From: a virus
DNA length: 31,769 bases
Direction: 5' to 3' (one strand)
IMG/VR virus record: IMGVR_UViG_3300006737_000102
Location: 1-31,769 of that record
The translations under genes were made by a program, and so were the position numbers. Shown in pieces: positions 330-2,842 of the stretch. The notes beneath the pieces are model-generated. The model had not been told where the DNA came from. It made no database searches and worked only from the letters and a program-made list of their open reading frames with translations. Positions within the stretch are counted from its first letter, which is position 1. Every line of letters begins with the position of its first letter.

Positions 330-688
330 AGTACCCTTTCTGACCGAGTTGGTCGGCTTTTGTTTTCAAGGTAGCAGTTCGGCATTATATATAGATTATT
401 CAAATGCCTTGGGTTTTTTGACGCACGTCCTGGGTTATAATACAACGTGCTTCTTTATAAATAGTTTATACAGAAACGCATACGCTTTAAAAAAAAAGCC
501 AAGTTCCTCTCTCTCTCTTATAGTTATATATACAAAAGTAAATGGAAAGAACAACAATCAATAATATCTATATATATAATACAGCTCTGAGGTTTCCTGC
601 CGTAGACCTGACACAAAGAAAAAAAATATATATATATCTAATAGCATAAAAAAAAGGTAGATGGCTGTTACACCACCTACCCTTAGTA
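330..688. other. Noncoding gap between two leftward genes
   Basis: No gene is supported here. The stretch is A+T rich, with T and A runs near 414-419 and 488-498 and alternating TA near 570-637. An inverted repeat GCACGT (423-428) / ACGTGC (445-450) flanks a perfect TATAAT (436-441). No -35 box at normal spacing was found on either strand, so this is only a candidate operator or promoter region. The terminator of the right-hand gene occupies the right end. Confidence 0.4.
648..681 (-). terminator. Rho-independent terminator of the 149-residue gene
   Basis: Read on the minus strand, GGTAGGTGG and CCATCTACC form a 9-bp stem (one G-U pair) around an 8-base loop, followed directly by eight T. 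It starts seven bases after the stop codon of the leftward gene ending at 689. This is a textbook intrinsic terminator and confirms both the direction and the end of that gene. Confidence 0.9.
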
Positions 689-1138
689 CTAACTTGGAAA
701 CTCTACGAATTGTTCCCAGGCTTTATCCTTTTTAGGATTGCCAGCTTTGATAGAAGTATTAACTGCTTTCTTAGCTAACTCATTCTTAGAATATAGATTG
801 ATAGGACAAATGTAATCGAATACTTTACGTATAGCATCAGTACCAATGATATCATCCATACCTTTCTTTAAGTCACCTGCTTGAGTAAAGATTTCTTTAG
901 CGTCTCCACTTGCAACTATCTGATGTACTTGATAGCAACCTTGCCAAGAACGTATAAGATACTTACTCTCTTTACCATTAACTACTAGACGATACCTAAC
1001 CTTAGGTTTACCATCTGTACCTAATACAGCGTTGTCAATTCTACCGACTTGCACGGTTATATTCTTTTTACCAAGTTTACCTTGAGTAACACCACCTAGA
1101 AATCTAGTGATGTCTGAATTAAGTTTAGCCTTAGCCAT
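689..1138 (-). CDS. Unknown 149-residue phage protein
   Basis: I do not recognise this protein. It is soluble-looking, without membrane segments or signal peptide. The first 60 residues suggest beta strands with a DGKPKVRYRLVVNGKE stretch resembling a small beta-barrel, perhaps nucleic-acid binding. The C-terminal third is helical and lysine-rich. Two cysteines stand alone, so zinc binding is unlikely. The ATG at 1138 follows AAAGGG about nine bases upstream, in the 10-mer CAGAAAGGGT that also precedes the leftward zinc-ribbon gene. A strong terminator follows the stop. The 5' region can fold into two alternative hairpins, which suggests post-transcriptional control. The flanking terminator and ribosome site make it a real gene. 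Confidence 0.75.
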   Translation of the reverse strand: MAKAKLNSDITRFLGGVTQGKLGKKNITVQVGRIDNAVLGTDGKPKVRYRLVVNGKESKYLIRSWQGCYQVHQIVASGDAKEIFTQAGDLKKGMDDIIGTDAIRKVFDYICPINLYSKNELAKKAVNTSIKAGNPKKDKAWEQFVEFPS

Positions 1139-1159
1139 TGTCTTAACCCTTTCTGTTAC

Positions 1160-1209
1160 GGTTGTCTACTAATAACAACCTCTGACACACTTGCTCAGAG
1201 TGTTGTTAT
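1160..1209 (-). promoter_or_regulatory. Mutually exclusive hairpins upstream of leftward gene
   Basis: Bases 1172-1180 plus 1181-1185 pair with 1195-1200 plus 1202-1209 as a 14-bp stem with one bulged base (T1201) and a 9-base loop. The same bases 1175-1180 (ACAACC) can instead pair with GGTTGT at 1160-1165. On the leftward transcript the large hairpin is made first and the alternative lies closer to the ribosome site of the gene starting at 1138. The arrangement resembles a two-state leader, but neither form covers the ribosome site, so a regulatory role is inference. Confidence 0.45.
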
Positions 1210-1244
1210 GTTGGTGAGAGTTGTTGAGGATGAAGTAGTGCACA

Positions 1245-1333
1245 AGAAATCTTAACTGGGACGTGGGGTTTGCCGTGCCCCGCACGGTATGCTTAGGCTT
1301 GTCCTAACATCCCCACGAAGGAAGAAGATTTCT
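1245..1333 (+). ncRNA. Candidate structured RNA with three-way junction
   Basis: An outer 9-bp helix pairs 1245-1253 with 1325-1333. After an internal loop a perfect 7-bp helix pairs 1262-1268 with 1311-1317. Inside are two hairpins: 1271-1278 with 1282-1289 (8 bp including one G-U) and 1293-1297 with 1303-1307 (5 bp, loop CTTGT). All four helices are compatible and no reading frame covers the segment. The pairing works on either strand; plus is chosen because flanking sequence is G-rich and C-poor on that strand. It matches no tRNA, tmRNA, RNase P or riboswitch consensus that I know. It could be one domain of a much longer RNA. Confidence 0.5.
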
Positions 1334-1620
1334 GTAATGTTCTTGAGTTGTAATGGTATCACGGAGCTAGCGAATACGTGGAGCGTACGGAGTGATAGTA
1401 GAGCGAATTAGGACTGTTAGTTAGACACTGCAACATAATGAGCTCACAATGGAAACGATTAGAACATTTGCACAACGAGGATAGAGACTTGAGTGTATAG
1501 TGAAGGAGATGTCTCGCCCGAAGGCGAGTGTCAACGAGCCCTCGGATATATTAATAGCGAGACACGACTGAATGAAAGTAAGTTGATATTACTGTAATAG
1601 TGTGTGAAAGAGAAAGAGTA

Positions 1621-1633
1621 TACTATATATAGT
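1621..1633. promoter_or_regulatory. 13-base dyad motif, copy 1 (one mismatch)
   Basis: TACTATATATAGT contains the perfect palindrome ACTATATATAGT. It differs by one base from the motif at 1731 and 20402. As at 20.4 kb, the two bases before it complete TATACT, a good -10 box (1619-1624), but no -35 box lies at 17 bases. It may be an operator or a weak promoter. Confidence 0.4.
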
Positions 1634-1730
1634 GGTATAGGAAAAGAGTATAGGAGTGTAGAGAGTGTCTGAGGTTTGTATCATAGGGAACTAATTTAAG
1701 TATATATACTAGACATATGTTAACAAAGGG

Positions 1731-1743
1731 TACTATATGTAGT
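1731..1743. promoter_or_regulatory. 13-base dyad motif, copy 2
   Basis: TACTATATGTAGT is identical to bases 20402-20414 upstream of the scaffold gene. With the next base it forms a TACTA / TAGTA hairpin-like dyad. All three copies in the window lie in gene-free DNA, which argues for a protein-binding or promoter role. Confidence 0.45.
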
Positions 1744-1774
1744 ATGTTTTAAAGATAGGGTGGGATAAGTAATT

Positions 1775-1794
1775 GTATGCGAGCGTATGCGAGT
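1775..1794. repeat. Tandem 10-base repeat, two units
   Basis: GTATGCGAGC is followed at once by GTATGCGAGT. The pair sits in the loop of a possible 5-bp stem (GGATA 1763-1767 with TATCC 1794-1798) and between two TAGGGTGGG copies. The function is unknown; iterated sites like this occur at origins, but two units are few. Confidence 0.4.
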
Positions 1795-1924
1795 ATCCAA
1801 GTAGGGTGGGGTACATATAGATGTATGTTAAATGTAAATTATGAACAGGTGGTTAACGCGTAACGGGGGATATTAATGTGGCGTGGGGTGGTTAGAGTAT
1901 GTCATATCAAAAAAAATTACTGGT

Positions 1925-2018
1925 AACTAGCTTAATGTAGACGTGACACTTACCTGTACATTGACTGGGAAAGTGTTACAGGAGGATTGTAAAGTCCTGC
2001 ATAAGTAAGTGTCTAGTT
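1925..2018 (+). ncRNA. Second candidate structured RNA domain
   Basis: A perfect 9-bp helix pairs GACACTTAC (1945-1953) with GTAAGTGTC (2005-2013). An outer 5-bp helix (1925-1929 with 2014-2018) can stack beyond it across a one-sided bulge. Inside, 1954-1958 pairs with 1977-1981 with further pairs toward the loop, and a second hairpin uses AGGA / TCCT (1983-1986 / 1995-1998). This gives a three-way junction of about 70 bases. It is not a tRNA: no T-loop GTTC and a 9-bp closing stem. Strand is uncertain. It may be part of one large RNA with the domain at 1245-1333. Confidence 0.45.
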
Positions 2019-2311
2019 TATTATAGCATACACGTACGTAAGTCTAGTAAAAAAGCAATTCTTTTTTATAGTGCGTTTGGGGGGTGTTTTCGGGCAGGAG
2101 CGGACATTGTACGTACGGTAAAAAAATATAATTCTTTTCTTTTCGTAAGTCCTTGGGTACTCGCCTTGTGGTAATCCCAGTCCTAGCCTTCTGCTAGTAG
2201 CGAGCTTTCGTCCGTCCGATAGCCTCTTTACCTGTAACTTATTAGTTCAAAAAGAATGTTTGTTAAAAGTATATTCATACTAACATACTATTAAGAATAA
2301 AGGAGGATATT
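2019..2311. other. Gene-free leader upstream of the nuclease gene
   Basis: A 7-bp A/T hairpin lies at 2049-2067 (six A plus G, loop CAATT, C plus six T) and could act as a weak terminator in either direction. A nested structure follows at 2160-2204: CTCGC pairs with GCGAG, enclosing CTAGC-CTTCT-GCTAG. Here the plus strand is C-rich, unlike 1340-1900. TTGTTA near 2251 with CATACT or TACTAT downstream is a poor promoter match. A strong AGGAGG ribosome site sits at 2301-2306. Confidence 0.4.
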
Positions 2312-2842
2312 ATTTATGATTTTAAACAACAGTTATCTGTGGGAGAACAAGGGGAGAAACTCATTAGGTTCTTCTATGAATCTAAACGAGAAGAAGAGAA
2401 AACTCTCTATATTGTTAGAGAAGCACAACAATGGGAGCAGCAACAAGGTGCAGACTTCTTCGTGGTCAACAACAGGTTGGGTACAAAGTACTTTGAGGTA
2501 AAGACAGATACTCAAGCTAAAGATACAGGTAATGTAGCACTTGAGATACAGATAGTAGACAATGATGGATTTAAGTCTATAGGGTGTGCAATGAAAACAT
2601 TTCCTGACTTTCTCTTTTACTGGATACATCCAACTACTGAGATACTTTACTACGACCCAAAGAAACTAAATCCCTGGATTGTAGATTGGATTGCTGACGG
2701 CAATCACAGGATAGTAGAGACAGAAAATAAAAATTTTTTTTCACGCTCATTACTAATACCTATAAGCGAATTAAAAGCTACAGGGGAAGTACGTACTTTG
2801 AACGTAACAGAAGAGTTAGTAGAAAAAGCTATTTACTCTTAA
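2312..2842 (+). CDS. PD-(D/E)XK-type nuclease with no ordinary start
   Basis: The protein shows the order typical of small phage PD-(D/E)XK nucleases. An N-terminal helix holds VGEQGEKL, then GADFFV carries the metal-binding Asp and FEVKTD supplies the E-x-K pair, followed by a TGNVALEI strand. Numbered from a GTG at 2339 these are Glu6, Asp39, Glu53 and Lys55. Repair, resolution or genome processing is the likely role; the substrate is unknown. The start is odd. The strong AGGAGG (2301-2306) is set for an ATG at 2316, which is in the wrong frame. In the correct frame only ATT codons (2309, 2312) lie near it, and GTG 2339 is 32 bases away. The likely conserved FKQQLSVGE segment lies upstream of that GTG, so ATT at 2312 is used here provisionally. 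A -1 shift at a T-TTA-AAC heptamer or one lost T are alternatives. Confidence 0.7.
   Translation: MYDFKQQLSVGEQGEKLIRFFYESKREEEKTLYIVREAQQWEQQQGADFFVVNNRLGTKYFEVKTDTQAKDTGNVALEIQIVDNDGFKSIGCAMKTFPDFLFYWIHPTTEILYYDPKKLNPWIVDWIADGNHRIVETENKNFFSRSLLIPISELKATGEVRTLNVTEELVEKAIYS

Follow-up and report, generated by a model that had tools for sequence, protein, structure and literature searches.

OLE RNA is a large ornate RNA with protein partners. The put RNA of phage HK022, which is present in two copies, acts as a nascent transcript: it binds RNA polymerase and thereby suppresses terminators farther downstream. Each put element is small, with two hairpins in about 70 nt (PMC9378689). Few phage RNAs as large as the one considered here are known at all, and the functions of GOLLD and ROOL are open; these two resemble the present RNA in size and complexity, and GOLLD has been reported from marine samples too (PMC12286853). 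Here we analyze a gene-free locus in a 31,769-nt stretch of viral DNA (hereafter the window), for which comparison of relatives supports a structured RNA of ∼0.9 to 1.1 kb, very probably on the minus strand, with several covarying helices, including a pseudoknot.

Results

The original prediction described a possible large ornate RNA within DNA free of genes, ending at position 2018 and implicitly on the plus strand. No plausible gene was found between ORF149 (689..1138, minus strand), which encodes a basic protein of pI 9.7 and is the nearest downstream gene with the orientation of the RNA, and ORF167 (2312..2842, plus strand), a divergent nuclease-like neighbor whose true start is 2312, leaving a gene-free gap at 1139-2311. 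All of the helices named in that prediction were located in the sequence: a hairpin at 1172-1209 with arms ATAACAAC/GTTGTTAT together with CTCTGA/TCAGAG, junction arms at 1245-1254/1325-1334, a plus-strand hairpin CTCGCC-CGAA-GGCGAG at 1513-1528, and a 9-bp helix at 1945-1953/2005-2013. The reported excess of G over C on the plus strand is real (skew 0.30-0.53) but does not favor a plus-strand RNA; with the RNA on the minus strand, it becomes an excess of C over G. Folding of the single sequence was weak and gave no strand discrimination (z of -1.9 for plus and -2.0 for minus over 922 nt, 20 shuffles each; -3.6 for 1172-2018, 20 shuffles). Because the lone sequence barely surpassed its shuffles on either strand, the assertion that such helices are unlikely to arise by chance depends on relatives; comparison of these bears it out, whereas folding by itself is only mildly unusual.

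Thirty-two IMG/VR loci were first gathered via protein neighbors, and they displayed conserved blocks alternating with stems that had been swapped wholesale yet were complementary. A 17-mer query, TGTGGTAATCCCAGTCC, taken from the 3′ end of the gap on the plus strand, retrieved 97 IMG/VR stretches, and the distinct sequences among them were clearly the same element except for locus L049, which was rejected as a chance match of the 17-mer. A second DNA pattern brought in chance matches (L128-L134); the covariance model described below gave no match there, and these loci furnished a useful negative control for that model. The phages that carry the element are related marine phages of at least five groups, to which a divergent clade is added. 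Wherever the contig extends to these genes, the element is flanked by an ORF149-like gene on one side and an ORF167-like gene on the other, before the terminase. The IMG/VR relatives keep a gene-free gap of about 0.6 to 1.2 kb at the same site (about 1.0 to 1.3 kb in the 32 loci gathered first, where the contig is long enough), with a leftward basic-protein ORF on one side, a rightward nuclease-like ORF on the other, and the terminase beyond the latter. A single copy per record was present in the five phage records searched. The phage collection searched contained no isolate phage with the element; blastn aligned 51 bases to a Vibrio phage, an AT-rich match that was taken as chance.

For the terminase and capsid proteins, the nearest relatives come from actinobacteriophages. 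In a 1.1-Mb marine Actinomycetota metagenome-assembled genome (MAG), one contig bears two copies of the element separated by 43.86 kb, about one phage genome length, and a divergent copy resides on another contig of the same MAG. The phage protein affinities and the MAG copies together indicate hosts that likely are near Ca. Actinomarina; known phages of this group have been discussed (PMC7771536). The phage contigs of this MAG that carry the RNA correspond to L136/L137 (PBPX01000045.1) and L216, and one of them apparently exceeds one genome length. Dozens of phages, whose hosts are probably ocean Actinobacteria, have the RNA in common.

ORF167, used as the anchor for fetching relatives, resembles PD-(D/E)XK nucleases through a weak NOV_C match, and the top structural match of its model is the homing endonuclease I-Ssp6803I (E 0.016). 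In window-like phages this gene starts with a conserved ATT (ATA in L014) immediately after a GGAGG ribosome site, and in the other groups it starts with ATG; retention of such a rare start codon across the clade suggests translational control.

The most conserved and best-supported domain lies at 2098-2245, and the end proposed at 2018 was therefore too short. Domain 1 (2098..2245, minus strand) forms the 5′ part of the RNA. We aligned 40 non-redundant, diverse sequences with 24 proposed pairs in five minus-strand helices: P2 (2146-2150/2237-2241), P3 (2156-2159/2229-2232), P4 (2160-2164/2200-2204), P5 (2183-2187/2193-2197), and a pseudoknot (2101-2105/2214-2218). The loops GGACUGGGAUUACCAC and AGUACCC were invariant. 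Standard pairs accounted for 99.2% of these 24 pairs in the 40 sequences, two-sided changes affected 14 pairs (208 cells), and the covariation score of 0.544 compared with 0.137 ± 0.011 for shuffled and ≤0.074 for slid partners. A P6 hairpin was dropped since it is not universal, and RNAalifold, applied per group to both strands, was uninformative because the groups are too uniform.

The covariance model built for this domain, R1, identified it in 55 of the 78 loci fetched through ORF167. Seven of these (L165, L166, L167, L169, L170, L172, and L175) are divergent loci missed by the DNA motif, with R1 E values of 1e-19 to 1e-22. In the divergent clade, P4 is CUGCU/AGCAG and P2 is GUGGU/ACCAC, combinations absent from the training set, and the covariation score for this clade and the divergent MAG copy only was 0.228 versus a slid maximum of 0.060, above all controls. 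The ORF167 loci that R1 did not match still possess the long gap with the S1 domain (see below) and its promoter. In L173, L174, and part of L185-L215, domain 1 has drifted past the model, with the promoter and S1 domain remaining. The original prediction named variation without compensating changes among related phages as a refutation, and the comparison did not refute it: the changes are compensatory, and they exceed the relatedness controls, as befits a structured RNA. The large ornate RNA of the original prediction gains phylogenetically conserved, covarying helices, and the region almost certainly encodes a structured RNA.

A plus-strand reading was our initial assumption. On that strand, richly covarying domain 1 contained zero G.T pairs, and its deviations included A.C; the complete absence of G.T in such a domain led us to test the strand. 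Read on the minus strand, the domain 1 deviations were G.U rather than A.C by 10:0. The deviations in P5 and P3 were G.U on minus and A.C on plus, with P5 on minus pairing in all but one cell. Strand-blind scoring of mismatches in S1 gave 50 G.U on minus versus 12 A.C, although the events counted are not independent. In other groups, the hairpin of the S1 domain carries a GCAA or GCGA loop when read on minus, the UUCG loop and most GNRA loops agree with this strand, and the promoter points left. In the opposite direction, a few P6 loops are GNRA-like on plus (GAAA, GAGA, GTAA), and the helix G.U counts in the ORF-proximal part lean plus, with few deviations and hand-drawn arms. The wobble pairs together with the UUCG loop and the promoter conservation indicate the minus strand, on which the RNA very probably lies, and the plus-strand reading was abandoned.

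Helix S1 (1945-1953/2005-2013, minus strand) closes a variable domain. Its arms covary in 14 loci from five groups (0 of 2000 shuffles reached the observed pairing), and they have been replaced wholesale yet are complementary in all groups. S1 is located just downstream of P_L2, a leftward extended -10 element (2020..2028, minus strand) that reads TG-C-TATAAT at 2028-2020, from which a start near 2013 is predicted. The sequence TGnTAnnnT was present upstream of S1 in 70 of 73 distinct sequences, compared to a mean of 19 and a maximum of 32 after shuffling, and S1 with the adjacent extended -10 is conserved even where domain 1 has drifted. A leftward promoter-like element, P_L1 (2277..2285, minus strand; TG-T-TAGTAT), occurs upstream of domain 1. 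For this element, 41 of 42 distinct sequences have TAnnnT directly before a conserved ACAAAYA, and 28 have the full TGnTAnnnT, without a shuffle control.

From the promoters, the covarying helices, and the lack of genes, we infer that the whole RNA spans 1139..2270 on the minus strand, with a long form of ∼1.13 kb starting at P_L1 and a nested short form of ∼0.88 kb starting at P_L2. In the window, the interval separating the RNA from ORF149 yielded no terminator, and an intrinsic terminator (653..684, minus strand) directly follows ORF149. A similar hairpin plus T-run follows the ORF in L033, L039, L076, and L078, and is absent in several others. With no terminator before ORF149 and a strong one after it, two nested RNAs likely run into this gene; the RNA would probably begin near 2270 or 2013, reach about 1139, and continue into ORF149, ending at 684-653.

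Two 8-mers within 1963..1982 (minus strand) are complementary to domain 1 (1963-1970/2175-2182 and 1975-1982/2231-2238). These complementarities are practically free of mismatches in 22 group-1 sequences and occur in crossing order, so the pairing would be a pseudoknot or would involve two RNAs. In most other groups, the S1 loop again contains CCUGUAAC, the partner of GUUACAGG at the start of domain 1, and the L039-like and L185 loci contain shifted or changed 8-mer versions that, read by eye, are still largely complementary. These complementarities suggest an interaction of domain 1 with S1 within the long RNA. The 8-mers hardly vary inside group 1, and thus they could instead be protein or DNA sites.

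Additional structures are found closer to ORF149. The hairpin at 1513..1528, read on the minus strand, is a cUUCGg tetraloop hairpin (CUCGCC-UUCG-GGCGAG) with stem variants CUAGCC/GGCUAG, CUAACC/GGUUAG, and CUACC/GGUAG that retain the UUCG loop. The multi-helix junction at 1245..1334, tentatively placed on the minus strand, is restricted to group 1 and variable in length; its outer helix (1245-1254/1325-1334) covaries in nine group-1 phages (0 of 2000 shuffles reached the observed pairing). The long hairpin at 1172..1209 (minus strand) lies ∼34 nt before the ORF149 start and has covarying arms in group 1. According to our reading of the sequences, a rival hairpin, GGTTGT/ACAACC at 1160-1180, shares one of its arms. 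The 1160-1209 region would thus contain two mutually exclusive hairpins adjoining the ORF149 ribosome site, kept with altered sequence in L025 and L022, and the pair is a possible local switch. A near-palindromic motif resembling TACTATATATAGTA occurs twice within the C-rich tail (1619-1635 and 1727-1743); both copies are conserved in group 1 and are possibly protein binding sites.

The ORF149 homologues are co-oriented and occupy the same place in five groups. They have pI values of 9.4 to 10.0 in 12 of 12 cases and lysine-rich tails, but their between-group identity of 14 to 22% is far below the conservation of domain 1. The predicted ORF149 fold is compact (mean pLDDT 80.5), and a structure search with it returned no structural match. 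In L173 and L192, the downstream ORF encodes a different protein of 259 to 269 aa. Poor ORF149 conservation combined with a swapped downstream ORF fits poorly with a leader dedicated to a single gene.

The Infernal scan against Rfam that had been suggested with the original prediction matched no family; neither the window nor representative sequences from the other groups scored above chance with any Rfam 15 family. The failure to match GOLLD or ROOL by eye was repeated with models. The GOLLD model (RF02032) gave no hit in the window at the gathering threshold or at E<5 and none in six phage records at E≤10, with control genomes also falling below the family cut-off. The ROOL model (RF03087) gave none in six records at E≤10, in a search lacking a positive control, and the full-library cmscan provided no ROOL match either. 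Neither the window nor any of 25 related loci contained a tRNA gene. No description of this RNA was found in the open-access subset of the literature, which is weak evidence of absence.

Discussion

We tentatively propose that the RNA is a regulatory leader heading the leftward arm. Leftward transcription would begin at two nested promoters, at about 2280 and 2020, and the RNA would form the 5′ portion of a short transcript continuing through ORF149 to the terminator at 684-653. Domain 1 would pair with the S1 loop, so that the 5′ domain and the S1 domain co-fold in the long transcript, whereas the short one would leave them uncoupled. The folding state would set whether RNA polymerase or ribosomes enter ORF149, whose basic protein product may bind the RNA. 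As a whole, this mechanism is plausible with the balance against it. A long ORF149 leader is at least as likely as a free RNA. Somewhat doubtful is the fuller statement that the 5′ domain unique to the long form of two nested leftward transcripts pairs with the shared S1 loop as an internal RNA switch, for the first leftward gene or acting with its basic protein, kept across phages of an abundant ocean Actinobacteria group.

Besides a leader of the leftward arm, the principal candidates for its role are a free GOLLD-like RNA and an RNA partner of ORF149. In the first case it would be a large non-coding RNA that stands alone, as GOLLD and ROOL do, and is abundant in infection, with ORF149 as a separate gene or reached by minor read-through. 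Its conservation is far better than that of the downstream protein, its size and complexity are like those of GOLLD and ROOL (PMC12286853), and the downstream gene is replaceable while the second RNA domain stays. The absence of a detected terminator before ORF149, of a tRNA in or near the RNA (which distinguishes it from GOLLD and ROOL), and of any sequence match to either family makes this alternative unlikely, although a serious contender. It is quite unlikely that the functional unit is an OLE-like complex in which the ORF149 protein binds the preceding RNA of its own transcript: the adjoining, co-oriented position in five groups, the uniformly high pI with lysine-rich tails, and the compact predicted fold would suit a partner, but the protein diverges fast without a structural match and the RNA precedes an unrelated ORF in some genomes. 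Less probable still is a processive antitermination or Rho-attenuation element acting on RNA polymerase in the manner of HK022 put. The RNA is the first element of the leftward arm, whose other genes sit at the far end of a 41-kb relative, a strong terminator is close downstream, and the group-1 tail is C-rich and G-poor (C 0.28, G 0.11-0.13), as are Rho loading sites; however, this tail is absent in some groups (L042, L103), and put, with two hairpins in ∼70 nt (PMC9378689), is one-tenth the size of the present RNA. A pure DNA-level element (a replication origin, packaging, or recombination site with inverted repeats acting as DNA hairpins) was considered and is highly improbable, since its location at the divergence of two gene arms, 2 kb from the terminase, and the overall scarcity of G.U pairs are countered by the one-strand ratios of G.U to A.C (50:12 in S1, 10:0 in domain 1), the pseudoknot, the UUCG and GNRA loops, and the conserved promoter at the S1 edge.

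Whether as the leader that we favor or otherwise, the strong covariation, defined promoter and strand, fixed neighbors, and many variants make a structure model and direct tests possible now. The RNA also offers a marker for an uncultured phage group whose proteins point to marine actinobacterial hosts.

Among the described systems, put resembles the present RNA in being structured and in standing at the start of an early phage transcript near a promoter (here predicted). Only the position at the head of the leftward arm and the downstream terminator are put-like, however; domain 1 and S1 together occupy ∼300 nt rather than ∼70 nt with two stem-loops, and the RNA is 0.9 to 1.1 kb, multi-domain, and single copy in five phage records. 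The comparison with OLE lacks an Rfam match, and a protein partner is in this case guessed from the pI and location of ORF149. ROOL differs in its tRNA island and in giving no model match (the search having no positive control), but like the present RNA it is large, pseudoknotted, of phage or prophage origin, and without known function. GOLLD and ROOL both oligomerize, ROOL as an RNA-only nanocage. In GOLLD, the conserved part is not 5′ as it is here, and the present RNA has a promoter inside and no tRNA nearby; both are large structured phage RNAs of unknown function with a conserved and a variable part. The RNA described here is a new class within this known kind, the large structured phage RNAs.
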